Source of the DNA: Sthenelais limicola
Lineage: Eukaryota; Annelida; Polychaeta; Phyllodocida; Sigalionidae
Assembly: GCA_942159475.1 (NCBI GenBank)
Contig: OW804094.1
Location: 60,818,966 to 60,882,965, forward strand
Length of the DNA stretch: 64,000 bases
Reading direction: 5' to 3'
The notes under the pieces were generated by a model, which did no database searches, was not told where the DNA came from, and saw nothing but the letters and a program-made list of their open reading frames with translations. The number at the start of each line of letters is the position of its first letter. Within the stretch, counting starts at the first letter, position 1. Both the position numbers and the translations under genes were made by a program. Below, in pieces: positions 1 through 44,130 of the stretch.

Positions 1-1
1 A

Positions 2-547
2 GTGATATACTGCTATGGCGCATGGCAAAAAATATTTGAAGACATGCCCGGTGTTACATTTCAAAATGGTTTACCTGATGATTTGGATAGCATAGGAGAT
101 GGACATAATCATACACTGTTGATATTAGACGATTTGATGCAATTAGTTGTTGAAGATTCTAAAGTTCAACAGCTATTTACACGCGGCTCTCATCATAGAA
201 ATATTACAGTTATCTATTTGAATCAAAACATGTTTTGTCAAGGTCGATACGCTCGCACAATCAGCTTGAATTGCCACTACTTGCTTCTGTTTAGAAATCC
301 TAGAGACATCCATCAAATTTCAACACTAGGAAAACAGCTAGGTCTAGGAAAGTTATTAGTCGATGCTTATAAAAGTGCCACATCAGAACAATTTGGTTAT
401 TTGCTTGTAGATCTTTCACCTCATAACAGAACTTCATATAAACTGAAGAGTAATGTTTTACCAAAGGAAAATACATTTCAAAATGGAGATAAGAGAGAAT
501 CACAAGTATCAACCGAGCAGGAGGAAGGTGTTATTGTATACATATAA
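2..547 (+). CDS. ATP: Polinton packaging ATPase (FtsK/HerA, A32-like), 5'-truncated by window
   Basis: C-terminal about 180 residues of a genome-packaging ATPase. The Walker B segment LLILDDLM lies near residue 40, followed by a sensor-like stretch ITVIYLNQNMF and then RNPRDIHQI, which is the layout of the A32/HerA-FtsK ATPases of Polintons and adintoviruses. The Walker A loop and start codon lie left of the window, so the reading frame is simply open at base 2. In this family the enzyme pumps the linear genome into the capsid. It heads a same-strand block of integrase, capsid and protease genes. The last 40 residues are poorly conserved and charged. The family call rests on motif and context, not on a database search. 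Confidence 0.85.
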   Translation: MIYCYGAWQKIFEDMPGVTFQNGLPDDLDSIGDGHNHTLLILDDLMQLVVEDSKVQQLFTRGSHHRNITVIYLNQNMFCQGRYARTISLNCHYLLLFRNPRDIHQISTLGKQLGLGKLLVDAYKSATSEQFGYLLVDLSPHNRTSYKLKSNVLPKENTFQNGDKRESQVSTEQEEGVIVYI

Positions 548-678
548 GCGAGCAATACACAAAGCGCATGTGCAAGTACCGACATTGGAGTATGGATATG
601 TGATTACGTCCCCAGTTGCAAGAGATCCACAGAGCATACAACATCGCAATGATACAATGGTTATCTGTTAAATAGAGA

Positions 679-1194
679 ATGTCTAAGATACTTATGAAAC
701 ACAAAGACTACTTGAGACTTTTATTTAGCTGTCCTAGCCGATGTCAAACTGTTGCACTTTTGGATACATGCACAAATGGACAAATTGACGCACTGGGAAA
801 TATTTTCATGAACTTGCTAAGTTTACCTTTACCTCCGAAATCTAGGATTATTGTTGTGAAAAGGAAATCTTTACTAGAGAAACTATCTCCGAGCTCTAAG
901 CTGACCAAGAAAGCAAAAGCAGCTCTTATAAGCAAACATTATAGACTTATAATTGAGGTATTATCTGCAGTTGAAAAAGCTATTTTGAAACTATTATATC
1001 TTTGGGAAAGAGAAGAATATCAGGATAGATTATTGAGAACATCAGAAACAGAGTCATCATCATCAGAAGAAGAAGAAGAAGAAGAAGAGGGAGAAGAGGA
1101 AGAGAAAAAGAAAGGAAAAGAACAAGGAAGTAAAGCAAGAACCACTATCGACAGTAGCATTGATAATGCGCCGAATGATTTTGATTCCGTATGA
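679..1194 (+). CDS. Small conserved Polinton-type ORF with acidic tail (function unknown)
   Basis: 171 residues starting at an ATG. The N-terminal 90 residues are leucine- and lysine-rich (SCPSRCQTVALLDTC, then a run of helices with KRKSLLEKLSPSSKL). From memory this resembles a small conserved ORF often found beside ATPase and integrase in Polinton/adintovirus elements, whose role I do not know. Residues 115 to 150 are a Ser/Glu-rich, then pure Glu/Lys, low-complexity tail. Its 3' end overlaps the start of the next ORF by about 29 bases. I do not assign a function; a virion-associated or regulatory role would be a guess. Confidence 0.6.
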   Translation: MSKILMKHKDYLRLLFSCPSRCQTVALLDTCTNGQIDALGNIFMNLLSLPLPPKSRIIVVKRKSLLEKLSPSSKLTKKAKAALISKHYRLIIEVLSAVEKAILKLLYLWEREEYQDRLLRTSETESSSSEEEEEEEEGEEEEKKKGKEQGSKARTTIDSSIDNAPNDFDSV

Positions 1195-1642
1195 GAGATA
1201 TCAAGCATTTTTAAAACAAGCAAGTATTCAGAAAAATACTGAATCATCACAACCAGATTTAGACAAGAGTAGCGCCAGCACAGATTCTATAATAAAAACA
1301 ATCCAAAAAGAAGATGGAAAATATGAAGAGGAACAACTATGTAATGATAATTCGAGAGAGATTCCGAAAAACACAAAAGACACACAGGAAGGTGAGGACG
1401 TTCTTCCTATGCTCACTAACAAGCTGTCTTCCGAGGAAAAGAAAAGACAGCTCTTAGAACTTCTACATGAAACATTGGTTGGTTATGGATCAACAAAACC
1501 AATGACAAAGAGCAGAAAGAGAAAAGGGGTTGATTCAAATCTAAAGTCTGTTCCACCTCCACCTGGAATACCTATATTAAAAAAATCGAAAGAAATTAGT
1601 AAAACAAAAACCAGTAAAAACTGGAACACTATGTGGCAATGA
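1166..1642 (+). CDS. Small Polinton ORF upstream of integrase (function unknown)
   Basis: About 158 residues from ATG 1166; the frame is open a little further upstream but has no ATG there. The start region RRMILIPYERYQAFL recalls a short motif that I associate with small ORFs near capsid genes in Polintons and adintoviruses. The middle is charged and low-complexity; the C-terminus has basic clusters and a proline run (VPPPPGIPILKK), consistent with a nucleic-acid or virion-core binding tail, but that is inference. Its stop TGA (1640-1642) overlaps the integrase ATG (1639-1641) as ATGA, a compact junction that suggests coupled or reinitiated translation. Confidence 0.55.
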   Translation: MRRMILIPYERYQAFLKQASIQKNTESSQPDLDKSSASTDSIIKTIQKEDGKYEEEQLCNDNSREIPKNTKDTQEGEDVLPMLTNKLSSEEKKRQLLELLHETLVGYGSTKPMTKSRKRKGVDSNLKSVPPPPGIPILKKSKEISKTKTSKNWNTMWQ

Positions 1643-2835
1643 ATGAATATTTAACAAACGTATTCTACACCCCATCTGATCCTGACTCATTTGGAGGACC
1701 ATCTAAGCTCTACAAACGAGCTAAAAGAGATGGACACACATGGAGAATTAAAGATGTGCAAAATTGGTTGGACGAACAGGAGGCTTATACACTATTTAAA
1801 CCTTCCAGACTTAGACCTAAATCGACAAATGTCATAGTATCAGACAAGCATTATGAATATGACATAGACACTATGAACATGGTAAAATGGTCTAAGTATA
1901 ATGATAAATTTGCATACGTTTTGGTGATCATTGATATTTTCACAAGAGTATCATATGTGTATCCATTGTATACATTACAAGGGAAAGAAATAAGAGATGC
2001 ATTAAAAGAACAATTCAACATATCAAAACCTCGAGTAGCAAGAACAGATGGTGGAACTGAATTTAACAATTCATTTGTCAAGCAACTCTTTACTGATGAA
2101 GGAATTCGACATTGGGTTACTAGAAATACTCTCACAAAAGCTAATTATGCAGAAAGGCTAATTAAAACATTAAAAACTCGAATGGTAAAGATATTATATC
2201 ACAATGAATCTTACAGATGGATAGACATACTTCAAAAAGTTAATGAGGCTTATAATAATTCTGTTCATAGATCAATACGTATGACTCCATTCCAAGCATT
2301 GCAAGCTGATAAAGTTAAACTATGGAACATACAATATAAACCAAAATTAGATGATAAGGAGACAATGAAAAAACTAGCCAAAAGCAGAAGAGAAAAAAGA
2401 ATGGGCATAAAAAAACTAGACATAAAAAGCAGACGTTCTTCTAAAAATAGACGACCTCCTCGTCCTAAGTCAATATTTAAATTCAAAGTAAATGACGTTG
2501 TTAGGGTTGTTTGGATGAAAAGAGCATTTTCCAGGGCTTATGATGTTCAAAATAGCCATGAGCTGTTTGTTATAACAGAAGCCTTTAATAAAGCTGGAGT
2601 TGCTCACTACAGATTAAAAAGCTGGGCGAATCAACCTATAGATGGAATATTTTACAACGAAGAATTAGTAAAGGCGATAGTTACAGATGATACTGTTTAT
2701 AAAATATCGAAAGTAGGAAAGAAAATAATAAGGCGAAATGGAGTCCAAGGTCGGATTGTTTCTTGGAAAGGCTGGCCTCGTCAATATGATTCATGGGTGA
2801 GCATGCATGAAATTAAAGATATTCAAAGTTTGTAA
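1639..2835 (+). CDS. INT: Polinton retroviral-type DDE integrase with C-terminal chromodomain
   Basis: 398 residues from ATG 1639. The N-terminal zinc-finger part is weak. The catalytic core contains a first acidic residue in YDIDTMNM, then FAYVLVIIDIFTRVSYVYPL, the second Asp in RTDGGTEF, and the Glu in YAERLIKTLK, giving the D,D-35-E fold of Polinton, retrovirus and LTR-element integrases. A basic linker (about residues 235 to 285) leads to a C-terminal chromodomain (SWKGWPRQYDSW) that in related elements targets methylated histones. The enzyme would insert the linear element and make the 6-bp target duplications typical of Polintons. All three catalytic acids are present and there are no internal stops, so it looks potentially active. 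Confidence 0.93.
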   Translation: MNEYLTNVFYTPSDPDSFGGPSKLYKRAKRDGHTWRIKDVQNWLDEQEAYTLFKPSRLRPKSTNVIVSDKHYEYDIDTMNMVKWSKYNDKFAYVLVIIDIFTRVSYVYPLYTLQGKEIRDALKEQFNISKPRVARTDGGTEFNNSFVKQLFTDEGIRHWVTRNTLTKANYAERLIKTLKTRMVKILYHNESYRWIDILQKVNEAYNNSVHRSIRMTPFQALQADKVKLWNIQYKPKLDDKETMKKLAKSRREKRMGIKKLDIKSRRSSKNRRPPRPKSIFKFKVNDVVRVVWMKRAFSRAYDVQNSHELFVITEAFNKAGVAHYRLKSWANQPIDGIFYNEELVKAIVTDDTVYKISKVGKKIIRRNGVQGRIVSWKGWPRQYDSWVSMHEIKDIQSL

Positions 2836-2837
2836 AT

Positions 2838-2838
<1 letters not shown>

Positions 2839-2879
<41 letters not shown>
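2839..2879. repeat. (GA)n microsatellite between integrase and penton genes
   Basis: Perfect AG dinucleotide run directly after the integrase stop. The rest of the gap to 3051 holds a short CTGACTGACTGACTG run near 2909 and no ORF. Confidence 0.9.
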
Positions 2880-2882
<3 letters not shown>

Positions 2883-3051
2883 TCTGCTAGGGAATAGATA
2901 AGACCTGTCTGACTGACTGACTGAAATAATTGTCTTCGGCTCTAGCTGAGAGTAGGACGTGAGTGAAACTGCTTAAGCTTATATCATAACCAGACCTGCA
3001 CTTTTGAGAGGAATTTCATAATTGGTGGTGCTTTAAAGAACAAGAATCAAT

Positions 3052-3501
3052 ATGTATCTTTTTTTAAATTCATTGGATTCTCCAAAGAGTCAAAAGTTTA
3101 ATAATCCTTGGGATTTTACAGTTGATCTTCCATTACCGATTCCTTTAAATGAAGGCAAATGGAAGGTAGCTCTAATTGATTTCAAACTTATTTCTTGTAC
3201 TAATATTAGTAAAAAGGAAGATCTTTACATATATACGGATATGATAGAGCACGAGTCGTATGCATTGGGTTCAAATCAACCAATCCTAAGAATTGTTGAT
3301 ATTGATAGACCTGTGATGGACTCATCCACCGCTACTCACATAGGAGGCGATACTGCCCTTTATAGCTACTCATACTATATGAATGTATCAAGTGACTATC
3401 TTAGACAAGTTAGGATATACATAAGAACGGCTCAAAACACCATTCCCGTCATTGAGGTAGAAGCAGTGAGGTGTACGCTTCATATGAAAAAAGTAAAATG
3501 A
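3052..3501 (+). CDS. mCP: Polinton minor capsid protein (penton-like, single jelly-roll)
   Basis: 149 residues from ATG 3052. The N-terminus MYLFLNSLDSPKSQKF, followed by NPWDFTVDLPLPIPLNEG and KWKVALIDFKL, is the conserved opening of Polinton/adintovirus penton proteins (a short beta-rich N-terminus, then a G-x-W-x-V-A-L motif). The protein forms the capsid vertices in the family model. It sits just upstream of the core and major capsid genes. The stop TGA (3499-3501) overlaps the next ATG (3498-3500). Confidence 0.85.
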   Translation: MYLFLNSLDSPKSQKFNNPWDFTVDLPLPIPLNEGKWKVALIDFKLISCTNISKKEDLYIYTDMIEHESYALGSNQPILRIVDIDRPVMDSSTATHIGGDTALYSYSYYMNVSSDYLRQVRIYIRTAQNTIPVIEVEAVRCTLHMKKVK

Positions 3502-3908
3502 CTGGATATATGCATTACATCCCTAGTACTTCATCTTTTCAACACATAAATGAAAAGCAAAGGAAAATATTTTATCCTATTCAAAAGGGAGGTGGAGATC
3601 AAAGCGGGGGAGGAGGTCCACCTGTTAAAATGGTAACCTCCTCTCAACAAGCGCTGGATAGAGCCAAATCAAATCTTAAGCGCAGCATTGCTGCGGAGTC
3701 AGCTCCACAGTTAGTGTCAAGCAACATGAGTAACTCGACAGTTCCCGTCAAGCAAAGGAAGAAACAGGTTCAACGTGCTAGGAGTACCCAGGCTAGCAAA
3801 AAGAAAAAGAAAGTCACCAAACCAAAAACCAAACGTCCATCTACTAAATCAAGTAATTCCAAGAAGAAAAAAGTTAATTCATCAACGAGAAAGCACCGAC
3901 GAAACTAA
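3498..3908 (+). CDS. Basic virion-core-like protein
   Basis: 136 residues from ATG 3498; an in-frame upstream ATG at 3471 is possible but lies inside the penton gene. The N-terminal 30 residues end in a Gly-rich linker (QKGGGDQSGGGGPP). The C-terminal half is extremely Lys/Arg/Ser-rich with many KKKK and RKHRR clusters. Position between penton and major capsid, size and charge fit the adenovirus pVII/pX-like DNA-condensing or capsid-cement proteins reported in adintoviruses. No enzyme motif is visible. The call rests on context and composition, since low-complexity basic proteins are hard to assign. Confidence 0.65.
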   Translation: MTGYMHYIPSTSSFQHINEKQRKIFYPIQKGGGDQSGGGGPPVKMVTSSQQALDRAKSNLKRSIAAESAPQLVSSNMSNSTVPVKQRKKQVQRARSTQASKKKKKVTKPKTKRPSTKSSNSKKKKVNSSTRKHRRN

Positions 3909-3917
3909 AAATCAAAG

Positions 3918-5300
3918 ATGGCTATGATTTTAAACGAAGCTGTTGAAGGATATGATGAGAAACTAGCACTTTTTTCGGTTCCATTTGTCGAGACAGGCAT
4001 CCAGCAAAAATTTTGTCGAGACTATTACCCAATTGGTCAAGTTTCTGGATCAAACGTTTTGGAATTTGATATTCCAAACAATTCTAGTGAATACATTTAT
4101 CTAAAAGAAGCTAAGCTGTATCTGGCATTACAGATTGTAGGAGATAATGGAGTACCGATAACCAGTGTTGATAATGTAGGGTTAATCAATGCCCCTGCAG
4201 CTAGCATATTTAAACAATTAGAAATAAATTTTCAACAAACGACGATCACAACAAGTGTAGGATCTCATTTTCCTTATAAAAGTTTATTTGACATTTTATT
4301 AAATAGTGGATATTTTGAACAGGAAACTGAGCTATTTGTTAGCGGTTTCACAAAAGATGAACCTGGTTATATGGATACTCTACCAAAATCAGCAAACATC
4401 GGAGCAACAAAGAGAGCTATTCAAACTGAAGATGGAAGAATAATGACAGTCTCCACTCCTCTTCTCATGGATATTGCTCAACTGGATAAGTGCATTTTAA
4501 ATGGCGTTCCAATAAACATCAAGTTCTTTCCCTGCACAGATGAGTTCAGACTAATGTATTCCCCGTACACAGCTCCACCTACTCCGGCCACTAAATCATC
4601 GTCCGAAGACGCAACCACTGACTCTACCCCAGCCCCGCCCGTTAGAACTAGTAGGCGCTATTCATTGGAAATAAAACATGCCGTCTTTAAGGTTCCATTT
4701 GTAAAAGTTCACCCTGGATTACTTTTATCGCATGGAAAAACTCTTGAAAAGCAGCCGGCTGTATATCCATTCACTCGCTCGGATATAAAGTCATTTAATA
4801 TTCCAGCGAATAGCTATGATTTCTCCACTGAGAATCTATTTCAAGGTAACATTCCTAAAAGACTTGTTTTAGGTCTTGTATCTTCAGCGGCTTTTAGTGG
4901 TCGATGTAATTTAAACCCATTTAACTTTCATCACTATTCCCTGCGTAACTTATCATTTGAAATTGGAGGAATAAGTGTTCCCGGAAGACCTTATGACTTA
5001 GATTTTGAACAAAAGAACTATATTTCTGCATATAGCGATATGATAGAATCCAGAGCGGCCGGTCAAACCAGCATACCAAATATTGCATACAGCGATTACG
5101 CCAATGGTTATGCGCTATTAACCTTAGACTTGGAGCATACTAAATCTCAATTCTTTCAAAACCCTAAAGAATCAGGAAATACAAGACTTTCATTGAAGTT
5201 TAAAGAACCTCTACCAGAGCCGGTTACTCTTATATGTTATGGAACATTTGACTCTGTTATGAATATAGACTTTGCAAGAAATATCATATTACATCTCTAA
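3918..5300 (+). CDS. MCP: Polinton major capsid protein (double jelly-roll)
   Basis: 460 residues from ATG 3918, matching the usual size of Polinton/adintovirus hexon-like proteins. Characteristic stretches are FSVPFVETGIQQKF near the N-terminus, PNNSSEYIYLKEAKLYL, then ASIFKQLEINFQQ, VGSHFPYKSLFDILL in the first jelly roll, and SFEIGGISVPGRPY and NGYALLTLDLEH in the second. A Ser/Thr/Pro-rich loop (about residues 215 to 245) separates conserved blocks and is probably surface-exposed. The protein would form the trimeric capsomers. The reading frame is intact. The protease gene starts 5 bases after its stop. Confidence 0.93.
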   Translation: MAMILNEAVEGYDEKLALFSVPFVETGIQQKFCRDYYPIGQVSGSNVLEFDIPNNSSEYIYLKEAKLYLALQIVGDNGVPITSVDNVGLINAPAASIFKQLEINFQQTTITTSVGSHFPYKSLFDILLNSGYFEQETELFVSGFTKDEPGYMDTLPKSANIGATKRAIQTEDGRIMTVSTPLLMDIAQLDKCILNGVPINIKFFPCTDEFRLMYSPYTAPPTPATKSSSEDATTDSTPAPPVRTSRRYSLEIKHAVFKVPFVKVHPGLLLSHGKTLEKQPAVYPFTRSDIKSFNIPANSYDFSTENLFQGNIPKRLVLGLVSSAAFSGRCNLNPFNFHHYSLRNLSFEIGGISVPGRPYDLDFEQKNYISAYSDMIESRAAGQTSIPNIAYSDYANGYALLTLDLEHTKSQFFQNPKESGNTRLSLKFKEPLPEPVTLICYGTFDSVMNIDFARNIILHL

Positions 5301-5305
5301 TCATA

Positions 5306-5761
5306 ATGGATGAATACCAAGTTCGTAGAGCTCTTTTAGATATAGATGTTTTACGCTTGAACTATGAACTATATGTTTTACCGTATGATCTTTTACCCGA
5401 TCAACCAGTTTCTCCTGCTGTTTATATAATCAATACTGGACCTTCATGGTCTAGAGGTTTGCATTGGACTGTTGTTTTATTTCCGTCTGCTGATAATAAT
5501 AATGGATGTATTCCTGAGTTTTTCGATAGCTTAGGAAAAAGGGCGAATGAATATAACATAGCAATTGAAGAATTTATATTCAAAGCTCATTCAAAGTATA
5601 TGTATAATTCAAAACAAATACAATCATCAGATAGTCTTGTTTGTGGGCAATTTTGTTTGTTATATGTATATGCTCGAATCCATGATAAAAAAACATTTCA
5701 ATACTTTGTCAATATATTTGGAGAAGATCTCCATGAAAATGATTCACTTGTTTATTTTTAA
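5306..5761 (+). CDS. PRO: Polinton cysteine protease (adenain-like, C5/Ulp1 fold)
   Basis: 151 residues. The catalytic triad order of adenovirus protease is visible: His in SRGLHWTVVLF, acidic residue in EFFDSLGKR, then oxyanion Gln in KQIQSSDSLVCGQFCLL with the nucleophile Cys in CGQFC. The length is typical for Polinton proteases. It would mature capsid and core precursors during particle assembly. AATAAA polyadenylation-like hexamers overlap and follow the stop (5761-5766, 5768-5773), making this the probable 3' end of the compact structural block. Confidence 0.92.
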   Translation: MDEYQVRRALLDIDVLRLNYELYVLPYDLLPDQPVSPAVYIINTGPSWSRGLHWTVVLFPSADNNNGCIPEFFDSLGKRANEYNIAIEEFIFKAHSKYMYNSKQIQSSDSLVCGQFCLLYVYARIHDKKTFQYFVNIFGEDLHENDSLVYF

Positions 5762-6252
5762 ATAAAAAATAAACAAAACAATATAATATTATACATATGT
5801 TTTATTAGATATGCATGTATATGTATTTCGAATAATGATATTCATTGCTAATAGTGTGCTTGGTTTTTCTTGTTTTTAATCTTCTGTTCTTCTGTACTTC
5901 ATTGACTGCTTGACTGCTTGACTGGCTGTGTTTAACCTGCAAAGAAAATAAAACAGAAATAGAAAAAAACTTCAAGAATTCTCATTTTTCTTTATATTAT
6001 GACATTGCATAGAATTTACTGCTGTCTTTTCTAGAGGTTAACGAGCTAATGAACTTTCCCTAAAGTTTAAAATCATTTAACTACGACTTAAGAACATATG
6101 CTGTGCTTATCATAGAACAGTTCAGATTTTGTTGAGGGCAGCCTCTAAGTAAGTTTCGCGCGTAAATCTTCCTAACGGTTCAGCTGATGTTAATTTGGGA
6201 AGCAATTATAATCAACAAGGGTCATAGGAAGTCTGGACATCGAAGAGTGAAG
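5762..6252 (+). promoter_or_regulatory. Polyadenylation signals and upstream region of glycoprotein gene
   Basis: AATAAA hexamers at 5761-5766 and 5768-5773 end the structural gene block. A GACTGCTTGACTGCTTGACTG run near 5900 resembles the GACTGACTG runs near 2909 and 13666-13704, the only sizeable simple motifs shared by the element's gene gaps. No conserved ORF is present. The region should hold the promoter of the following gene; I see no clear TATA box. Confidence 0.5.
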
Positions 6253-8229
6253 ATGGGAGTCCTTTGCTATCTCTCGATGGTTTACATCATAACTTTCTTC
6301 TTTCAAAACGGATTGGCAGATACATCTCATTGCCTAGTATGCGATTGTGAGAGTCATGTCACAAATTGTAATGGGATATTCATCACACAGTTACCTTTTG
6401 GGAAAGGATATATTTTCCCTGAAACAAACCAGCTAGTGTTGCGGAATACTAGATTTAACATGGAAATTGGACTATCGGATATTCTTGAACTGTTTCCTGA
6501 CTTAAGTACATTCATTATTGGCGATTCGGAAGGTTATTATAGCGAGGAAAGAATATGTGAGGACTATAGAAAGCGATCAACTGACTTCAAGTCTAAGTTT
6601 ACGTTAATCGCTGAATGTGTCAAGATGGATCGCGATGGAACAGTAGAGAAACAAACCACAACGACTAGAACTGCTTCAACAACTTCTAAGGAAGTCTCAA
6701 CGCACATGGGTATATCACCAACTACTGCATACATCTATCGTAAGTCTTCTTCTAATTATGAAATATATTCTTCCTCTACTTCAGCTGATTCTATTCACTC
6801 TTCCCTCGCTTCGACTGGGTCTATTGATACTTCTACTGATGCTGATATATCAACTGTTTACACATTTCATAAATCTTCCACTTCTTCTTCTTCTGCTGCT
6901 GATGCTAGCACTATGTATTCTCAAACATCCATAATATGGGATATTCTGTATTCTGAGTATGCGTCTCATTCTACTTCTAATCTAGACACTTCCCGCACAA
7001 GCGAAATGACCACTGAAACCACTAAAACCACCACAGTTACCGACAGTGCCTTCTCCTCTGATTCATCGACCCAAGCAGTTATTAAAGACACAGTAACCCG
7101 ATCGCTTCTAATCGGAGTACTATCTGCGCTAGGTTTTGGAGGTCTATGTGCGTTGGCCTATGTAGGATACATTGCTCGGGCTATCGTAATGGAGAAACTG
7201 AGACGCAACAATCCCTATTCTTACGAGTGTCATGCAAATAATGCTGCTGATGATGAAAATGGGGATGCTGAGACGGAAACAGAGGAAGAACGGAGGCAAA
7301 GACGCGTCGATGATCAGTTTATGTGGGATGGCTATGGTTTAAATAGTAGAATGGACTTGAAGGCTATCAAAAAAGAGGCCAAGAATAAAAGACGAGAGGC
7401 AAAGAGGAGAGAGAAAGCTCTAGAAATGGAGCGAAAGAGCTACGAGGAGTATAAGAGGAAGGTCTCCCTTCAGATGGAGGAAGTTCCATTAACCGATGCC
7501 GAAGAACCCCCAAAGAGCAAAAAGGCCAAAAAGAAAAGCAAATCTCTGTTAAACAGCATTGTGACGCTTGCTGCTGTACATTTGTAAGCTATACATACAT
7601 ACATATATATTATATAAGATTTTTTATTTTTAGAAATGGAATTAATCTATTATTTAAAAAAGCGACATAGAATGTTCATATCTTATATATATATTATAAA
7701 GCATATTACATAGGACCAATCTCATATCTCATATAACATATAACATAGCATCAATATCATATCTTATATGTTATATGGTATATTAATTCGCTTTATATGT
7801 ATTCTATATTTATTTCATAGGCCTGGTAATCGCCATCGAGATTCTGCTGCTAAACGCGATCAAGATTCTCCTGATGATGCTGCTGCTGCTGCTGCTGCTT
7901 CTAATGCTGCTGCTGCAGCTAAACATCATCAAGATTCAACCGTTGTTCTGAATGAAAAGGACACTACAAAAACACTCCAGAATGTTGCTGATGTTCTTCC
8001 TAAAACTCCTAATGCTCAGAGTGAAACCCAGGTTAAGATCGAAAGAGAAGCTATCGAACCTCCAACCACCTCTCAAATCGAAGGTGCCGCAGCCATCACC
8101 GATCATTCTTCTAAAGAAAAAGAAGTCGTAGGAGCCAAATCCAAAGAGGAAACAGAGGATGATTCACTCTCTCTGCGTACATCTAGCAGAGTAAAATACC
8201 AAACCGAACGCTATACTAGTATAGTGTAA
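6253..8229 (+). CDS. Spliced type I membrane glycoprotein, LRRNT-like ectodomain and mucin stalk
   Basis: Exons 6253-7583 and 7821-8229 join in frame (579 codons plus stop). Donor GTAAGC and acceptor TTTCATAG bound a 237-bp AT-rich phase-2 intron. The unspliced frame stops at TAA 7585-7587, inside the donor. Start 6253 is preferred over ATG 6187 because it begins a signal peptide (MGVLCYLSMVYIITFFF). The mature protein opens with a Cys cluster (CLVCDCESHVTNC) and leucine-rich strands resembling an LRR N-terminal cap. A Ser/Thr-rich mucin-like stalk of about 150 residues follows, then one transmembrane helix (LLIGVLSALGFGGLCALAYV) and a highly basic cytoplasmic tail. Exon 2 adds a poly-Ala stretch and an acidic tail ending SIV, a possible PDZ ligand. 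The protein looks like a virion-surface or cell-surface protein. I see no fusion peptide and recognise no known envelope family. Confidence 0.7.
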
Positions 8230-8243
8230 ACCATACACTTACC

Positions 8244-9191
8244 TTATCCTATTAGCTCTCCGTCTGTCTCAAGTCCTGAGTCATCAGATACGCTTTCGTC
8301 ATCCTCTGAATCACTTTCAACGATGACCTGTTAATCATAATACAAAACATTTATTTTATGGAAATATGAACATTAGGTAACTGCTTAAGATAAAGGAAAC
8401 TTGTATATACTTATTATTTCGCTAGACATGTGCATATATACCCAGCTAAATACATTTCAAAATTATAATTCATATACTTACTTTGTTTTGGATAATCAGG
8501 TAGTCTCGATTAACCAAGCAATGGTTCAGGCTTACCACGAGAATTGAGCGAAACCTTAAATAAAATGTAGAACAAACATGTATTTTTACACTCTTGGTTT
8601 TATATTCAAACAATTGTAAATTTTATAATCTCAAAATAACAATAATAATGTAGTCATTTTAAAAAAATTTCAAAACATAACTATAAACAATACTTACGCA
8701 TGTGAAAACAGATCATGAACTGGAAGAGCAAAACTAGTTACAACGAACTTAAAACGTCTTGCTCTTCGAATAGCCTCTGCGCTAACAAAGAGACAAAGTC
8801 CAGTTGTCGTCACGATGTAGATTTCCCTGTGCCGATCGCAATATACTTGGGCATCAGGTCCGATATTAATTCTTTCCTCTACATCCATGACGACGTGTGG
8901 GAACTGATTCCCCAAAACAGTTATTAACTGGACAGTGTTTTGCGGTGTCATCTCAAATCGTGCATGGTCATGTTGGTTGTCGTCGTCGTCGTCGTTGTCT
9001 TCTGATGGTTCACGAATGAGGTGGTATGCCAACTCATGTGAACCGTTATCTAGAATTTGTGTATATATGTTCAGCGTAAATGTTCCGAAGAACAGCCCTA
9101 ATTCCATAGCGACTATGATATGAGCTACATTTCTTTGAAAAACCAAATGATGCTGGTAAGGCTCCAATTGCTCATCACCCTGGTTGTTCAT
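8244..9191 (-). CDS. Spliced accessory protein of the Polinton right arm, acidic C-terminus (unknown)
   Basis: Three minus-strand exons, 9191-8698, 8554-8482 and 8327-8244, join to 216 residues. Splice sites are GTAAGT/TTTAAG (phase 2) and GTAAGT/AACAG (phase 0). Without splicing, exon 1 reads straight into TAA of its own donor (8696-8694). The N-terminal half is mixed hydrophobic (VAHIIVAMELGLFFGTFTL), then an Asp/His-rich linker, then a segment with YIVTTTGLCLFVSAEAIRR and an arginine cluster. Exon 3 is Ser/Asp/Glu-rich, resembling a casein-kinase-type acidic tail. I recognise no family. A TATA-like TTTATAAT lies about 90 bases upstream. The gene converges on the glycoprotein gene, with only 14 bases between the two stops. 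Confidence 0.65.
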
Positions 9192-9989
9192 GGTTGCAAT
9201 TCAAAATGCACTATGTAAGATTAACTTCTGAGTAGCTCCTATACACTCACACACGCACATATCTTAAAACCCATCCTATTATAAATTATCCCATACCTAC
9301 ATACCTCAAAATGTTGCTATAATCACTTTTATAATACCCATGTGATAGCTTGAGATATGTTATGAGTTATGGTTCTACAAGCGCCATTCTTAACATGCGA
9401 ATATGGTAGTTTCTGACATTGTAATCTTTCCCATTATATTTCTTGACATGTGACATAACACCATTCGGCTGTTTAAACCCAAGTATGGGATGTATTCATG
9501 CATGTTAAGTTGAACTTCTTTAACCTCTCTCGCTCAATCTGGTAGAATGTTTGGCTTTATCAATCACTTCTAAGATTGTGATATATCCATATTTCATTGT
9601 CTTGTAATATATCATCCTATGCATGTCTAAAACCGGTTATGGAATATGAACTCATGTTGCGAATGTTAGATTTATAGTCGTCTGAAACTAGACTATTTAA
9701 CCTTTTCCTTTCTCCTTCGCCTCTGCTATCTGGAGCTTATCGATTCATCAATGTTACTCATTTCACCCTATTCACCCTTGTTCTACGGTGTCTGTCTGTC
9801 TCTATCTTATACATTCTTCCCTACATGCATGCATGCGCGCTTACTCTCTCTCTCTCTATCAGTAATATTACCTTATGTCATGTAACTGTAAAACACCTAG
9901 GCTTCTCTCTTATCTATATGATATATTATTTCGAAATGGAATCTATATATCAAATACGATGACGGGAAAATAATTGCATTTATCTCCAG
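9192..9989. other. Divergent intergenic region of the Polinton right arm
   Basis: Between the minus gene ending at 9191 (its start) and the plus gene at 10089. A minus-strand TATA-like element is at 9278-9283. The rest is AT-rich with short CT runs around 9846; no ORF or conserved structure is visible. It presumably holds both promoters. Confidence 0.5.
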
Positions 9990-9997
9990 TATATATA
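9990..9997 (+). promoter_or_regulatory. TATA-like box for the spliced gene at 10089
   Basis: TATATATA, about 92 bases upstream of the ATG. The divergent minus gene (9191) and the large minus gene (13638) have similar boxes about 90 and 117 bases from their ATGs. Confidence 0.45.
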
Positions 9998-10088
9998 CAT
10001 AGATATTAGTATTAGGCGTTAGTCTTGGACTTTCAATTGAAAGAAACGCATCGCTGGTATTACTCTATCACGGATATACTAAATCACA

Positions 10089-11006
10089 ATGGAAATAAGG
10101 TAATGCCTTTATATTATTTGATATGATATATTATCTTCTTATAGTATATAATAGAATAAATGCATGTAAATTAATACTATTGACATCAAAATAGAAAAAT
10201 AAGTAATACCTTTATATTAATAATCACTTTTAAAATTTGTTATAGTATATATATATATATATAATAGAATGTATTATAAATTTATCATTGTTATTATTTC
10301 AGCACAATTGCCTCCATCATATGTCTTCTGGAGCGTATTGAAGAAAGACTTGTGGTTGTCGAGTCTAGACAGGTGCGGACAAATATGCTTCTGACAGCCA
10401 TTGTGCAGGAGCAAATTAGGGTAAGATATTAGTATTCACATTCTCATTTATTTATCTATTTATTTATCTTCAAGATCGTTATAATTATTCTTCCATTGCA
10501 TTTATGAAATAAACCAGAATCGATCAATTTCATTTTATTTATAAAAACTAATTTATAAAATATCGAATTTCTTTTTATAGAACTCTGCACAACATGAAGT
10601 TCCTGATGACGAGGTTGATAAGCAATCAACTCCACCTCCTCCACCTCCTCCTGCTTCACCCTCATCGTGGATCCGTTCTTCTTCAGAATCCCCCAACTCT
10701 ACGATCGGCTACTCAAACTGCGACCTTCAGAATTACATGCCGGATCTAGAGTTAAACGCGCCGGCTATTCACTCGACGCCTATATACTCGGACATATCCA
10801 GTTTTGACCTACCATCGGAGGGTTCTCTGTTTTCGACGACTGATACAGAGCCTAGTCCTCTGGTGATCCCGCCGAATGCATTGGCATCACCAACATCATC
10901 GGTGCCTACATGTGTGAGCACCCCTACAAGTTCCATCGACTTTAAGCAAAGAAGCCCTCGACGGATGGGTTATTTTGTTAAAAAAACCCTCAACTTTAAT
11001 TCATAA
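10089..11006 (+). CDS. Spliced Pro/Ser-rich accessory protein (unknown)
   Basis: Exons 10089-10099, 10303-10420 and 10581-11006 join to 184 residues. Exon 1 encodes only four codons and its donor GTAATG gives an in-frame TAA if unspliced. Intron 1 (phase 2) ends TATTTCAG; intron 2 (phase 0) is GTAAGA to TTTTTATAG. Exon 2 encodes an amphipathic leucine-rich helix (LLERIEERLVVVESRQ), a plausible coiled coil. Exon 3 starts with an acidic stretch and a proline run and continues Ser/Thr/Pro-rich to a basic end (KQRSPRRMGYFVKK). It looks like a disordered regulatory or adaptor protein; no family is recognised. The perfectly phased exons make it unlikely to be chance. Confidence 0.65.
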
Positions 11007-11408
11007 AAATGTAAGTATATCTTCGATATATCAAAAGTCATAATGTTTCTATATTTCCTTGTCTTATGTTGTAATATAACACACCAAGTAAATTCAAATT
11101 AGTTATTAAATATAAACTCGTAAAAACTAACATATTTTAATTCTTTTGTTTTATTTCAATTTTTAAATTCAAGTACATTCCTATATATAATCGTATGTTT
11201 TATTTCATATTTCATATTTCTAATTGTGTGTTTCATTTCATGTCATTTCAGATTTTGTAAAACGAGTTTCGGATTGGGCAGTCATAATTGTAAGTTTTAA
11301 AATTTAATAAAAAATATAACTGTCACTGAGGTAGTATATCAAAATGTTATTGTTATTGTTCTCCTTGAGTTTGTGAGTTTTTCACTGAGTCAGGTTCTGT
11401 TTCTGGAT
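11007..11408. other. Convergent 3' region with possible UTR intron
   Basis: Lies between two convergent genes. A GTAAGT donor just after the plus-strand stop (about 11012) and a CATTTCAG acceptor near 11250 could define a 3'-UTR intron. AATAAA at 11306-11311 is a candidate polyadenylation signal for the plus gene. Confidence 0.4.
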
Positions 11409-13257
11409 CTACATATTATCCAAAAGTTTAAACTCATTTTCAAACTTCACTTTATACAAATCTTTAGCAGTGACAATGCTGCTTAAAATTTGCATAATAA
11501 GGGCTTTGGTCTGTGTCGAGTCAGTCGATAGATGACCTTCATAACCATGGTACATAGCCATAACGACCATAGCATCGTTCAAACGCTCAGTCGTAATCCG
11601 TTTCTGAGCCATGGTAATGTATTTCCGCTGTATAGACTCTCGCCTGGGGTGATACATAGGGCACGATTCTCGTTCATGACCTACATCATTTAATGAATGA
11701 GAAAGACATCCTGGGCATGTTTTTTCTTTGATTTGAAGAAATTCTTTTTTAACCAAGAACACGTAACACTTCCCAATAAAATCCTCCAAAGGCGGGCGGG
11801 CATCAGTGATCAGCGCTATTTCTCCGAAGTAATCCCCTTTCATTACGCCATTCGTTCGAACTATCTGCTCTTGCTGTGCCTTAACACATTCTGACCTATC
11901 AAAAAAATATTCTGAAAGGGCTACTTTCTCAGGCGTTCTAATGGGGGGCCTGTTTTCCTTCTCGTCAATATCAGAGCATCCGTCACTCATCTCAGTTATG
12001 TCCTCCTCGCCGGACTTACATGCCCTCATATCGTAGATCGTGTATCGATATCTACTAATCTGCTTCTTAGAATCGGCCTCCAATGGTATTTGCACTGTCT
12101 TTGGAGAGGTGGTGGAGGAGTCTGAACAACCATCATTAGTCGGTGACATTGGTGATAAGGGAATCGCCAGATTCTCATTTTCCTCCTTGTCCATCTGTTT
12201 GGGCATATTCTTCTTTCCATTCATTATCTCATTAGCCGTTTTTCGATCAGCCGTGTGAAAGAGGTAAACAATCTCTTTACTTGTTAGCTCCCTCTTCCTT
12301 CCTTTTGAGGTTTCCTCCTCCTCCTCCTCCTCCTCCTCCTCCTCCTCCTCCTTGCCTTGAACCTCCTCCTGAGACTCTCGACTCTCCTCTTTCCTCTTCT
12401 TAGCCGGAGGTTCAGATTGATCTTCTGGCGATGAACTTAAATTATTGATAAAATCCAGAGTGGCCGCATTAACCTCCTGTTGATCTCTTTGGGTGTTAGA
12501 CTTGGAATAGTTAATGGGGTGTTCTACTTCGATAGAGCCATTTGTAGTCTTTTCCATAGTATCAGTAGCCGTGACTTGCCTCTTTTTTTCATTTTTCTTA
12601 GCAAGCGCAGCCACCCAATGATTTTTTTGACCAGTGTAAACAAAACGCTTTGTAACGTCATATTCCAAGGGCCCATTTTCAATTTCCAAGGACCTAACGG
12701 GTTTAGAGATTGGAGTGGACTCTGCTGGGAATGTAATCTTCATCCAGTTTGCGATCTTGTGTATCTCGGCCGAGGATAGGTTAAACGATTTCCACCTGTA
12801 GTTAAAATGATAACACAGTTTTAGAATGGTGTTGTTAGAATAACCACAAATATCGTTAACAGAGTCTATTTATACGTCCTTATCTCTCTCTTGCTTTTCC
12901 CTTATAAAACCATCGTTGATAGTCATGACATATTCCTATAACCAGATACTAGTTACCCCCCTGCGCTCCTACACGCTCACTCCCTCTCTCACGCGTGCTT
13001 GCTTACTCATCGTCGTATCTCATGTCACCGACCCATTATCTATTTATCTCCCTCTCAAGTCTGACAGGCGAATAGCTTCTAACATAACATGTACTTAATT
13101 ATCATTATGAACGTCGATAGCAGTACATACATATTATGAATGGTTAAATGCTTGTATCTAATTCAGTTAAATTGGCTCATCTATAATAATCTATAATATC
13201 AACGATTCCAAGAGCAAGAACAGCGATAAGAAGATGAACAACAACAACAACAACAGC

Positions 13258-13295
<38 letters not shown>

Positions 13296-13638
13296 CTGAA
13301 CAAGCAGCTCAGCGATATATAAATCTATTTATCCATGAGTAAAACAAAACTTACCCTACTCGGTTGTGATGTAAATCATAGAAGCCGAATGTATAGTAGT
13401 CCTTGTCTTTAAAGACCTGCTTTTTCAATTGCCACCATCCTTCTGGCTCGATACACTTCCGCACAATTTCTTCATTATTATCCAAGGCCTGTTTCTGTGC
13501 AATAGCTGCTCTTAGAATCTTTTCTGGTACATTTACACTGCGATCTTTAGAACCTGGATCCTTAAGCCTACAAAGTCTAATCGTATCCGTACCAAGCTTT
13601 CTTACGCATAAATCGCCCGTAACATATTGCCAAGACAT
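11409..13638 (-). CDS. Large spliced charged protein with possible Cys/His site (unknown)
   Basis: Minus-strand exons 13638-13355 and 12795-11409 join through a phase-2 intron (donor GTAAGT, acceptor AACTACAG) to 556 residues. The frame is open to 13665 but the first ATG is 13638. Unspliced, exon 1 ends at TAA inside the donor. Exon 1 encodes a compact segment with WWQLKKQVFKDKDYYTFGF. Exon 2 continues WKSFNLSSAEIHKIANWM, then a Lys/Glu-rich disordered middle with about 15 consecutive Glu, a basic PPAKKRK cluster that could be a nuclear signal, and a more ordered C-terminal 200 residues. Those include CPGCLSHS followed by HERESCPMYH, a possible zinc site. No polymerase or helicase motif is seen. 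Size, charge and nuclear-signal-like motif suggest a DNA-associated regulator; this is inference. Confidence 0.65.
13236..13296. repeat. (CAA)n microsatellite in the intron of the large minus gene
   Basis: About 20 AAC/CAA units, slightly interrupted by one CAG. It lies wholly within the intron (12796-13354) and so does not alter the protein. Confidence 0.85.
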
Positions 13639-13665
13639 TGTATAATAGCAATATTTGACTTCCAA

Positions 13666-13704
13666 CTGACTGACTGAATGACTGACTGACTGACTGACTG
13701 ACTG
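13666..13704. repeat. (GACT)n run in the 5' leader of the large minus gene
   Basis: Tandem ACTG/GACT units between the ATG (13638) and the TATA-like box. Similar runs lie in two other Polinton gene gaps (near 2909 and 5900). Confidence 0.7.
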
Positions 13705-13753
13705 TCACGTAATCCAGCGCTGAAGTGAGTGGGAAGAGATCTCTACATCTGCT

Positions 13754-13762
13754 CTATATATA
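13754..13762 (-). promoter_or_regulatory. TATA-like box of the large minus gene
   Basis: Reads TATATATAG on the minus strand, about 117 bases upstream of ATG 13638. It is the outermost gene-related signal I can place in the Polinton, so the element's right end lies to its right. Confidence 0.45.
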
Positions 13763-13916
13763 CTACAGCTCCTTCTAACGAAAGAATCACCGTTAGGCTA
13801 CACTTGATAGATAACGATATCCTGTAAGCTGTACAACCTTTGAACATCTCAAATATATGTAAAGGTGAATGCATAAAGGTCTAAGGTCTAAGGTTTACAT
13901 TCAAGGTTAGGGATTA

Positions 13917-14430
13917 GGGTCAGAGTTTCTCTAAGTCCTCCAGGTGTCTATAGTCGTTAATCATAAATCATAATTCCAAGGGGTTCCAGATCATAACAGG
14001 GGTATCCCCCCTCCCTCGACATCCCTTTGATCTACTTAGGATCTATCAAGACTGGTATTCTTAAGATCAGGGTGTGGGGTTAGAGTTTCCAGGTGTGCCA
14101 GATGTCTAAATCCATTAAACATAAATCACAATTCCAATGAGCTCCAAATCAAAGCAGGTGTCACCCCCCTCTCTCTACACCCCTTTGATCTGATTAGGAT
14201 CGATCAGCACAGGTATTCTAAGGTCAGGGTTTGGGGTTAGGGTTAGGGTTGGGGTCAGGGTTTCTCTAGGTGTCTCAGGTGTCTGGATCCATCAATCATA
14301 AGTCACATTCCACTAAGGTCACAGGTCATGGCGGCGGCATCCCTCAGGTATCCCTTTGATCTCCCTCAGGTATCCCTTTGATCCCTTTGATCTTGTGACA
14401 GTGACAGCAAGGTCAGGGTTTGGGGTCAAG
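13917..14430. repeat. Tandem repeat, three diverged units of about 155-190 bp
   Basis: Units start near 13917, 14070 and 14226, with a partial fourth at 14415. Each contains GGGTTTGGGGTTAG-like G-rich starts, AGGTGTCT, an AATCATAAATCA stretch, CAGGTGTCACCCCCC and CCCTTTGATCT. It lies just beyond the last Polinton gene, so it may be part of the element's long terminal inverted repeat or a neighbouring satellite; the left end is outside the window and cannot be compared. Confidence 0.75.
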
Positions 14431-14613
14431 TACAGTTTGGAATCGCATACTACTACTACTGATAAAACCATGATATGAAGTAGTGGGCTATAGAAGAACC
14501 CTAAGTCAAGGTGGAGACTGCCAGTAGGAGACACGATAAGACTCCAACAAATGCACAGCCAGTCTATAAGGTCCAACCATCCATCGTATCTAAGGGTTAC
14601 TTATCTCGGATAA

Positions 14614-16624: not shown

Positions 16625-17623
16625 TCAGTAGGTGTCCAGAGCACCGAGAACTGAAGCCATCTGGTTCTCAAGGCGACGACGATGTTGCATGGGAGCTGAC
16701 AGATAATTTAAAACTGCCATGGACTGCCAATCGCCTGCCAGACGAATATCCTGGAGACTGATGCCCTGGGTATGCATGAAGGTGGCCGAACCCCGGCGCA
16801 AACTATGAAGACCGATGTCCTTGTTTAGACCTGCTATACGGGCCCATCGCTGTAGCATAGGCAGAGCAGAAGTGTAAGCAGGAGAGCCACCTTTGAGGCA
16901 AATTAAGGGAGATGTCGTTGAAGCTGGGTGCCTCTCGCATAATACTCGTAAAGCACTATGCAAACACAGAGAGGAACCACAGTGACGGATGGGGATTTCA
17001 AAGGCGCGAGAGCCCAGCTGGTCTGTTTTCGAAGACCCCACGCTGATAACCAGCCACTCGCCCTGAAAACACACATCCCCTCTTGTAAGAAGATGTTCAT
17101 TAGTAGCAGAGTAGAAAACATGACATTTGCGGAGCAGAGTTCTATAACACAAGAGAACCCCGGTCCATACTGCAAGCTCTAATTCATCTGACAGATTCAC
17201 ATGTTGGAAGATTTGTATCAAGTCATCGGGGAGAAGTGGATCTTTCGGCTTCGGCCCCACCTTGAGGGTACGTTGTATTCCTTTCAAAATGAGAGATAAT
17301 TGAAAATCGTCCCTGAGGTCAGGACCTCCATTAAACTTTGAAAGGTGATTGATGGCTGATAGGTTATTATTAACAGTAGAAAAAGAAAGGCGTTTGATGG
17401 TGCACATATAAGCTAGGTACCGGCAGACAGTCTGTGGGCCTACCGGCACAGGCACTAGCCCGAAGGAATCACAAAACTTATAATACTGGTTCCACTGGCT
17501 TTGATGCACTGACCTAGTTGACATAGCCATCGCCTGAAGTTGTAGCTTTTTCACCTCAGAATCCAGTTGCACTACAAAGTAGATAGAAGAGAAGGCACAA
17601 GGGTGACATTTCGTGGAAAGCAC
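16625..17623 (-). CDS. Tyrosine recombinase of a decayed Ngaro/DIRS-like element
   Basis: 332 codons on the minus strand. Catalytic residues are visible in order: first Arg in CYRTLLRKC, the His-x-x-Arg in LHSLRRGSATF, a GDW motif, and the nucleophile Tyr in VLNYLSAPM. The N-terminal part (SVHQSQWNQYYKFC, then NNLSAINHL) matches the core-binding domain of YR retrotransposons. The track begins at GTG and no ATG lies at the expected start, so it was probably translated by frameshifting or reinitiation after the RT. It is free of stops although the upstream gag and RT of the same element are broken. It integrates circular cDNA by site-specific recombination in this family. Confidence 0.85.
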   Translation of the reverse strand: MLSTKCHPCAFSSIYFVVQLDSEVKKLQLQAMAMSTRSVHQSQWNQYYKFCDSFGLVPVPVGPQTVCRYLAYMCTIKRLSFSTVNNNLSAINHLSKFNGGPDLRDDFQLSLILKGIQRTLKVGPKPKDPLLPDDLIQIFQHVNLSDELELAVWTGVLLCYRTLLRKCHVFYSATNEHLLTRGDVCFQGEWLVISVGSSKTDQLGSRAFEIPIRHCGSSLCLHSALRVLCERHPASTTSPLICLKGGSPAYTSALPMLQRWARIAGLNKDIGLHSLRRGSATFMHTQGISLQDIRLAGDWQSMAVLNYLSAPMQHRRRLENQMASVLGALDTY

Positions 17624-17717
17624 ATGTGAAACACATATTTTAGAATTTCAGCTAGGTGGTCGCATGAGGCCCTGCCTTTAGATATCATATGGATCACTAG
17701 CTTGGTATTACAAATCA

Positions 17718-18242
17718 CTAGGATACCAGAATCGTTAAATCATGGGAAGGAAGAGCAACATGTAATGTAGCACACATGGCACATAATTCCCTGGCGGCTG
17801 GGCTGTGAAAACAGCAGACAGGCATGTTAATATCACACTGAGCTGGCAGGAGGTGGAACCCAATGAAGGAGGCGTCCACAGAGTTGAAAAACCCTGAGTA
17901 TTGGAAGGAGCCTACGCCCGCTGCAAACCTTGTAGGAGTAATCCAATGCACATAGTCATGAGTAGTATTTAGTGTTGGTAACATAGGAGACACACCATTG
18001 TTGGCCTCCATGTGTACCGCCCACCACTGTATGTCACCGTGGAAGGAAGGGGGCAGCCGACGTTTCTCACTGTCCGACATTGACCTCAGAAGATCAAAAA
18101 TGGAGTTTATGTATATGCGGCCACCCGCAATCACTTTCCCACAATGTGAAAGGACTCCAGCCAAGCGTTGAAGTTGATTCCTGGTAGCCTTGTACTTGTT
18201 AGTGAAGTAAGCCAACTCCTGGCGAAGTTTCAGGAGCTTATC
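17718..18242 (-). pseudogene. 3' part of Ngaro/DIRS RT-RNase H, interrupted and truncated
   Basis: Continues the RT after the transposon insertion at 18243-20519. Starts DKLLKLRQELAYF, then NQLQRLAGVLSHCGKV (the thumb/connection typical of YR elements) and an RNase H-like region (SVDASFIGFHLL, AARELCAMCATLH). In-frame stops TAG TGA at about 17718 end the frame in the middle of RNase H. Residues before position 18242 in this open frame belong to the inserted transposon, not to RT. Confidence 0.75.
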
Positions 18243-19639
18243 CCCGATGTGCATTGAAAAATCTGCCAGTGCATGCAAAAGTGCAACTGACCAGTCACAG
18301 AAGTGCAATCCGCTCAAAAAAGCAGTTTTGCACCTGATTCAACATGCATCATCTGATGCTCTTCATAATGCGTATCAAAATGATGCATCCAAATCGGTCG
18401 TAAATGCACATGCTGCATGCAGTTAAATTATTTTAACAAGTGATAAGCATAAAAAGATTTGTATTAAAGCAGAGTATTTCGGCTTGTAGGCCTACTGTAT
18501 ATATGGTGATTGAGTGTGAAATAGATATAAATGCAGCTTTTATGCTTTAAAGTAACCATCACCTTAAAAGGTTAAGTGCAATGGGGATAAAATGGATCAA
18601 TTGATAAAACATATGATATATCAATTCAAATTCCTACCCCGTCCTTCATATTAAATTTGATAATTATTAGAGTTGGCTACCCCTACACCCACCCCGATTC
18701 ATGAGCTGTCTCTCAGTTAGGGAGGAGGAGGAGGAGGAGGAGGAGGAGAAGAGCTGGGAGTGTCAATCTAGTGCGAATCCCCTCCCAGACTACCTTCACA
18801 CACTCATAGCAAAGCTTTAACACCTCAAAGAAGCCTGCCACAATGGAAAGTTGGGTACAGTCGAAACCGTTTTGTGGTGTATTCTTTTTCAAAAATACAT
18901 GTAGGATAAATAGATCCATGAACAAAATAAATGATATTAATATAACACACCTCATTCCCGCCGAGTTCTACATCTAAAAACTAGAGACTTTAAGGGTTTT
19001 ACCCTCACTAATGTCACCTTTCCACAAGACTCTACAAGTACAAAATGTACATCAATTGTGCATGAACATGTTCTTCTGGGAAGGAATAGGGGCAAAGAGA
19101 GGAGGAAAAGGTGGAGAAATATATAAATAAACGTCACCATCATTTCGGATATAATTGCTAAACGTGATGTGTTATAGGGAAATGAGTCACAAGTCGCAAA
19201 AAGGATATTTTTCAAAGCGATGTTTTCACTAGATGTCTGTGTTAGAATATTCTGAATATTCTGATTCTTTGGGGGTCAAGTGCTGTTCATAGCATAACTA
19301 TATGTACCAAATTTCAAGACTGTGGATTAAATATATCCTTGCGTTTTCAAGGTCATTTTCAAGGTCGTTTTCAAGGTCATTCTAAGAAGTATATTTAGCT
19401 ACTTGACTGGTAATTGTCTACCAAGAAAATATTGCAAACTTTTTTCAAACATAAAAATATCAAAGATAACATATAGAAACTCTTCTTAGATGTCCCTAAT
19501 GTTTACTAAAGTTGAAATCAGCTTCATCTCATCTGTTCGAATGTAATGATATCTCAAAATCATTTTTTTGAAACTCATTTTCCTGAAACTCATCACAAAC
19601 AATGATATATTATATCTTATGAGGAATCATTTTTAATAA

Positions 19640-19744: not shown

Positions 19745-19784
19745 GTGAAAATAATACCAATAGCCATCCTCAATATATGGTTTA

Positions 19785-44056: not shown

Positions 44057-44130
44057 ATTGAAACAGAAAAGCACAACCTGTGCACCGGTACTGAATAGAT
44101 CTACAGTCGTATAGACATAACCGTAAGCCC

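Follow-up and report, generated by a model that had tools for sequence, protein, structure and literature searches.

Probable introns in the accessory-gene arm of a Polinton from the annelid Sthenelais limicola

The window analysed here is a 64,000-nucleotide stretch of the Sthenelais limicola genome (G000:C1:60818966-60882965; the genome searched was the 1.13 Gb assembly of 161 contigs), and its positions 1-14460 hold about two thirds of one Polinton/Maverick element with a whole length of ~21.6 kb. Four accessory genes on the right arm of this element (A-D) appear to be split, and each of their first exons ends in an in-frame stop codon at the putative splice donor. The locus raises the question of whether these interruptions are genuine introns and, if so, what the shared stop signifies. 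A first-pass annotation had suggested that the right arm may be a splicing-dependent module; this suggestion is supported at the level of gene structure, but the donor stop on its own does not speak for regulation. Our best explanation, in which we have high confidence, is that each accessory gene would carry one or two ordinary spliceosomal introns that are spliced by the host, and that the core genes need none. Judged from sequence comparison, the introns are very probably real and restricted to the accessory arm.

Positions, phases and donor stops of the introns

The accessory genes form two convergent pairs, A with B and C with D, and contain six GT-AG introns. The junctions proposed at first (7583/7821, 8698/8554, 8482/8327, 10099/10303, 10420/10581 and 13355/12795) have the borders that were described, and all six acceptors read AG at the predicted positions. 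The coding lengths of the first exons are 1331 (A), 494 (B), 11 (C) and 284 (D) nucleotides, each of them 2 modulo 3; the four first introns are in phase 2, and phase 0 is found for the second intron of B (8481-8328) and that of C (10421-10580). Read without splicing, the first donors give TTG-TAA (7584, gene A), GCG-TAA (8697, B), AGG-TAA (10100, C) and GGG-TAA (13354, D), in agreement with the first-pass annotation. The spliced frames do stay open past the first intron as had been claimed, but the range is from about 52 codons in B to 462 in D and not 29 to 463. The G+C content of the introns is 15-25% (36% in D) as compared with 41-48% in the adjoining exons, and that of the 11-nucleotide exon 1 of gene C is 27%.

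Where an intron in phase 2 begins with GTAA or GTGA, the codons NNG TAA or NNG TGA arise by construction. Because the in-frame stop is close to automatic once phase 2 and GTAA are given, it is on its own no evidence of regulation, and the meaning at first attached to it largely reduces to this built-in consequence. With the phase frequencies of animal introns, four of four first introns in phase 2 would occur by chance in 0.2-0.5% of cases and any one shared phase in 4-7%, and we regard the coincidence as only mildly unlikely. Of the 7315 stop trinucleotides that the window contains, 168 (2.3%) are embedded in GTRAG. All three long first exons of the right arm (A, B and D) close with such a stop, and they are among the 6 of 102 open frames of at least 80 codons in the window that do so.

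It is quite unlikely, in our estimate, that the donor stop is a selected switch by which retained-intron RNA yields deliberate short isoforms, in the style of small T versus large T, and for which phase 2 has been kept. The common phase of the first introns is consistent with such a switch, as are the retention of NNG-TAA in the loci in which the first donor was read, the conservation of exon 1 of gene D over its whole 94 residues, and the retention of GTAA by gene C despite weak donors. However, the stop follows automatically from phase 2 and GTRA, its position is inherited, and the unspliced product of gene C would be four residues long.

In the preferred explanation of ordinary host-spliced introns, the element would be transcribed in the nucleus of the host (presumably by RNA polymerase II), and host splicing would be required before full accessory proteins could be produced. 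Unspliced RNA would give the exon 1 product only, through the stop at each first donor, and the capsid, protease, integrase, ATPase and polymerase-like genes would be expressed without splicing. We infer that the introns are actually spliced from nuclear transcripts and that the accessory set acts as a regulatory or host-interaction module whose expression is separate from that of the core.

Conservation of borders and constraint on exons

Sequence comparison establishes the borders, phases and conservation of the introns, and it shows that the main downstream exons are coding. Six sibling stretches of 10 kb (L009-L014) were compared, and genes A and B were followed in these and in close copies of the element. 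L009, L010, L011 and L013 match genes A-D, matches in L012 are limited to A and B, and L014, a closer but rearranged copy, lacks exon 1 of gene D. Exon identities in L009-L013 range from 34% to 75%. The protein matches reach the predicted borders in exon 1 of D (residues 1-94, 4/4 loci), exon 1 of B (to residue 164, 6/6), exon 2 of B (residues 1-24, 6/6), exon 2 of C (to residue 39, 5/5) and exon 2 of D (from residue 1, with 34-59% identity in stretches). Exon 1 of B is matched over residues 1-164 at 46-82% identity in five of the six loci and over residues 90-164 in L012, and exon 1 of A is matched at 38-48% identity in two stretches. Exon 3 of B has a tblastn match in one of six loci (L012) and was read by eye in the others.

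The first-pass annotation had named conservation of introns and phase in sibling elements as a check, and both are kept in sibling families of the same genome. For gene D, the counts refer to the 30 of 34 genome matches to exon 1 for which sequence was available; the lowest identity among the matches is 36-37%, and the deeper tiers were compared by D only. The donor GG/GTAAGT (GGG TAA) is present at the same codon in all 30 loci, which fall into tiers of ~100% (8), 70-72% (9), 61-64% (5) and 37% (8) identity. In 28 of them the acceptor is found as well, followed by the conserved beginning of exon 2 (W or Y, K or R, and SFN, in this order); in L038 and L040 neither was found within the stretch examined. 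The length of this intron ranges from 179 to 680 across loci. Borders of both introns of gene B are kept in 14/14 loci (eight close copies including the window, and six sibling loci), and the donor of gene A is likewise kept in 14/14 (8/8 close copies including the window, 5/5 sibling loci, and L014), together with its acceptor in the five sibling loci. In 17 of 19 loci, exon 1 of gene C is unchanged and GTAA comes directly after it, the exceptions being L059, in which the intron is enlarged past the 500 bases searched, and L062, which is more diverged and lies in the rearranged L014 region. The second donor of C is kept in 19/19 loci, and its acceptor was read in L010, where the borders of the C and D introns are all retained; those of D are also retained in L013. 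The borders are GT-AG and conserved in position and phase in diverged relatives, as is characteristic of spliceosomal introns.

Between two families, the exons have lengths of 73/73 (B exon 2), 118/118 (C exon 2), 284/284 (D exon 1) and 494/485 (B exon 1) nucleotides. Alignment of the introns between the same families, scored against shuffles, gives z <= 2.2 for four of the six; intron 2 of B (z 12.2) and intron 1 of D (z 10.6) align well above this. For four of the six introns the difference in length is divisible by three, so length alone is uninformative.

It is very unlikely that each downstream frame is a gene in its own right, with its own start, next to which a GTAAG stop lies by chance. 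Internal ATGs in exon 2 of D and exon 3 of C would suit such genes, but in the window no in-frame ATG occurs in A exon 2, B exon 2 or B exon 3. The sibling matches break off and resume at the predicted borders of D exon 1, B exon 1, B exon 2 and C exon 2, and the invariant donor of D also argues against independent genes.

Positions 7000-8700 of the window have 29 matches in the genome, eight of which, including the window, are near full length with 93-100% identity. In the eight close copies, no donor or acceptor of A or B has been lost, nor has the first donor of C. In the copies nearest to the window (c2-c5), 13/13 length changes in exons of the right arm are multiples of three, as compared with 5/12 in introns; non-zero changes were counted copy by exon, and some are common to several copies. 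The ratio of nonsynonymous to synonymous change (dN/dS) and the P value for synonymous excess were obtained from distinct changes pooled over seven copies, with changes shared by descent counted once and with D partly covered in c7 and c8. The synonymous excess is strong in exon 1 of both A and B (dN/dS 0.18 in each, P ~3e-5 or less), in exon 3 of C (0.29, P 1.3e-5) and in exon 2 of D (0.25, P 1.4e-6). C exon 3 and D exon 2 are clearly under purifying selection in the spliced frame, as judged from these substitutions. The excess is slight (P 0.02-0.04) in exon 1 of D (0.10, four changes) and in exon 2 of B (dN/dS 0, three synonymous against no replacement changes, P 0.018).

Several observations weigh against the reading of the arm as four intact, host-spliced genes. 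All comparisons were made within one host genome. Exon 2 of gene A has a protein match in L014 and none in L009-L013, where the match to exon 1 ends at residue 415 of 443, short of the predicted border; the start of exon 2 in those loci was therefore read by eye. Matches to exon 3 of gene C in L009-L013 start only at residue 37, and the border was read from the letters. The first donor of C is without the G at +5 in both families (GTAATG, GTAACA), and exon 2 of D has an ATG of its own at codon 18. Constraint is weak in A exon 2 (dN/dS 0.50, P 0.075) and not measurable in B exon 3 (0.67, two synonymous and four replacement changes) or C exon 2 (0.37, three of each). The P values derive from pooled copies and are uncorrected for CpG context, in which 70 of 228 exon changes lie, and some of the exon length changes are in triplet repeats, which are prone to steps of three anyway. 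In the older copies, the frame is broken in D exon 2 (c6), B exon 1 (c7), and A exon 2, B exon 1 and D exon 2 (c8), and there is one stop each in c6 (A exon 1) and c8 (B exon 1). These lesions, together with a ~1.1-kb insertion in D exon 2 of c8, are what would be expected if the genes were decaying fossils and the introns were insertions or mutated coding sequence; a further insertion, of ~2 kb, lies in intron 1 of C in c7. We consider decay to have a negligible probability as an explanation of the arm: the main exons have dN/dS < 1, the best copies have only frame-preserving changes in exon length, and the splice sites are kept between separate families.

The introns are themselves far less variable than four-fold degenerate exon sites among the eight copies (window 5762-13354), with changes at 7/295 versus 21/143 G/C positions and at 16/960 versus 29/436 A/T positions. 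The effect is strongest in gene C, in which intron 1 has no distinct changes in 203 positions and exon 3 has 50 in 426. Between families, most of the introns have changed. Constraint or exon recombination could explain the low variation among the close copies.

Accessory and core genes of the element

The features of the element are listed in Table 1. By eye, exon 1 of gene A encodes a signal sequence, a Cys-rich head, a Ser/Thr-rich stalk, one membrane span and a charged tail, and the product looks like a type I membrane protein with the intron in its inner tail. The acidic tail of gene B presumably resembles a SUMO-interaction motif. Intron 2 of B (window 8328-8400) contains, just 5' of its acceptor, a stretch CAGTTACCTAAT ... 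ATAAATG that is kept between families and includes AATAAA. The end of exon 3 of B adjoins a strong donor, TAAG/GTAAGT (window 8236-8246), and sibling L010 has, near ~3607, GTATGT and no stop where B stops in the window; in siblings, gene B may continue into a fourth exon. Gene C looks like a proline- and serine-rich regulator. Both families keep AAAATGTAAGTAT directly after its stop, where there may be an intron, and a few hundred nucleotides past the stop both have a TTTCAG/ATT..GTAAGT..AATAAA pattern (window 11004-11310), which hints at introns in the 3' untranslated region. TATA-like boxes were seen by eye upstream of C and D in both families compared. In L013, a second copy of residues 1-32 of exon 1 of D (829-924) adjoins the gene. 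A PC4-like domain spanning the intron of gene D, guessed from the letters, was dropped because no tool supported it.

Table 1. Features of the Polinton in the window and to its left. Coordinates are window positions unless preceded by a locus name; a slash in a donor marks the exon edge.
Feature	Position	Strand	Basis or remarks
Polinton part inside window	1..14460	.	Element G000:C1:60811809-60833425; inverted repeats and flanks
Packaging ATPase, 3' part	2..547	+	By eye; no intron seen
Integrase with C-terminal chromo-like domain	1639..2835	+	Single frame; Pfam rve and Chromo
Major capsid protein	3918..5300	+	Single frame; protein homologues
Adenovirus-type cysteine protease	5306..5761	+	Single frame; Pfam Peptidase_C5
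Polymerase-like frame, 1796 codons	L015 4320-9710 (left of window)		No intron; motifs by eye
Gene A exon 1	6253..7583	+	Open frame, dN/dS, sibling matches
Gene A intron 1	7584..7820	+	Phase 2; donor TT/GTAAGC
Gene A exon 2	7821..8229	+	~135 codons
Gene B exon 3	8244..8327	-	27 codons and stop; acidic tail VIVESDSEDDES
Gene B intron 2	8328..8481	-	Phase 0
Gene B exon 2	8482..8554	-	73 nt in both families compared
Gene B intron 1	8555..8697	-	Phase 2
Gene B exon 1	8698..9191	-	Sibling protein matches
Gene C exon 1	10089..10099	+	11 coding nt (ATGGAAATAAG)
Gene C intron 1	10100..10302	+	Phase 2
Gene C exon 2	10303..10420	+	118 nt in both families compared
Gene C intron 2	10421..10580	+	Phase 0
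Gene C exon 3	10581..11006	+	19 genome matches, dN/dS
Gene D exon 2	11409..12795	-	461 codons; Cys/His cluster near C end (by eye)
Gene D intron 1	12796..13354	-	Phase 2
Gene D exon 1	13355..13638	-	94 codons

A word-based search of 5.8 billion proteins, made with pieces of exon 1 of A and exon 2 of D, gave no homologue. Scans of Pfam, PHROGs and solved structures, which covered the exons of A and D, exon 1 of B and exon 3 of C, yielded nothing that exceeded a curated cut-off or was clearly significant, and single-sequence structure predictions were unusable (mean predicted local distance difference test scores of 37.8 for B exon 1 and 35.6 for D exon 2). These searches bear on a tentative possibility, to which we give the lesser weight, that the accessory genes were captured from a host with their introns, which would be relics without a role in the element. 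Mobile elements are known to capture intron-bearing cargo, and here the introns occur only in non-core genes; against capture are the lack of homologues of the two exons searched and the persistence of the introns across old families. Host capture concerns the origin of the introns and is compatible with their being ordinary, host-spliced introns now.

The element is bounded by inverted repeats of 556 bp with 99.8% identity (window 13905-14460 and 2710-3265 of L015, to the left of the window). Its termini are (AGT)4 and (ACT)4, and GATAAA at both flanks represents a 6-bp target duplication; repeats, duplication and ends are those of a Polinton/Maverick. No introns were found in the core genes examined. 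One open frame each holds the integrase, the capsid protein, the protease and the polymerase-like product, and the first-pass annotation had likewise seen no introns in the structural genes. The integrase, of the kind expected in a Polinton, matches Pfam rve with an expectation value (E) of 7.6e-07 and Chromo with one of 0.0089, each short of the curated cut-off. The protease is also of the Polinton kind (Peptidase_C5, E 0.00025, 21.2 bits against a cut-off of 21.3), is ~75% identical in four sibling loci and is stop-free in all four examined. The major capsid protein, which in Polintons is of the double-jelly-roll type, has no Pfam match here but 180 homologues at E <= 0.001, the best among the 120 listed having 52% identity over 99% query coverage; a few, from molluscs and one crinoid, carry the name F54H12.2-like, which we take to be a name of the Polinton capsid. 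The ATPase consists of two adjoining open pieces, of which the one ending L015 has a Walker-A-like GCTSSGKT (by eye) and the one in the window has no Pfam match. In the polymerase-like frame, the candidate for the protein-primed DNA polymerase B of a Polinton, DTDS- and GNSGFG-like motifs were recognized by eye; Pfam at E <= 0.1 gives C2H2 fingers and NADAR, with no polymerase match and no OTU match. The NADAR domain (PF08719, E 9.8e-18) lies at the end of this frame, and a literature search for papers with both NADAR and polinton found none.

Relatives of the element were not found in viral contig scans (with the capsid, capsid relatives and D exon 1), in one genome contig scan or in a phage collection search. 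Elsewhere in the window, 16625-22476 and 39916-44275 are two elements with tyrosine-recombinase-like and reverse-transcriptase-like frames, DIRS-like by eye.

Comparison with known systems

In adenoviruses and polyomaviruses, the DNA is nuclear and the early or regulatory genes (adenovirus early genes, polyomavirus T antigens) are spliced, with isoforms that have a common first exon. The expression logic of the right arm would be analogous to theirs; no sequence relationship of the accessory genes to these viruses was found. If the accessory arms of animal Polintons are spliced, their gene content has been under-called, part of the element cycle depends on host nuclear RNA processing, and the likeness to adenoviruses in expression logic is testable with existing RNA data.

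The first-pass annotation knew of no standard description of such splicing for Polintons, in agreement with the excerpted texts of PMC8097293 and PMC10120064. According to the former, no introns were observed in the genes of intact vertebrate Mavericks, which it describes as agreeing with Kapitonov and Jurka 2006. The vertebrate elements, as described in that excerpt, share with the present one what is probably the same core gene set, the inverted repeats, the 6-bp target duplication, the AGT/ACT ends and accessory regions beside the core, but no introns were seen in them, whereas here six conserved introns lie in four accessory genes. Endogenous protist viruses are said in the excerpt of PMC10120064 to be intron-free, and a prokaryotic gene finder was used there for that reason. 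A broader proposal is, in our view, unlikely: that the accessory arm of animal Polintons is an ancient module gated by splicing, in which every first intron sets a stop at the exon edge and host splicing picks short or full proteins, and that such modules were missed through annotation with intron-blind gene finders. Excerpts on dinoflagellate elements report that GT-AG borders were not found (PMC12721341), and some Polinton-like viruses have group I introns, another kind of intron (PMC12220804, excerpt). Adintoviruses resemble the element in having virion genes like those of adenoviruses and an integrase of the retroviral kind that carries a chromodomain (PMC11071296, excerpt). Splicing of adintovirus genes is not mentioned in the excerpts of that paper, whose splice and intron terms concern other subjects, or of PMC8363768 (Drosophila-associated); the founding adintovirus paper lay outside the comparison, and an earlier description is possible. 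A term search of PMC11071308 gave no intron or splice terms.

The Ginger DNA transposons, in the excerpted account of PMC2836005, are alike in having an integrase-type transposase, and some of their families have 1-4 introns, nearly all of them GT-AG. In Ginger elements, however, the transposase gene itself is split, whereas in the Sthenelais limicola Polinton the integrase is intronless and it is the accessory genes that are split.

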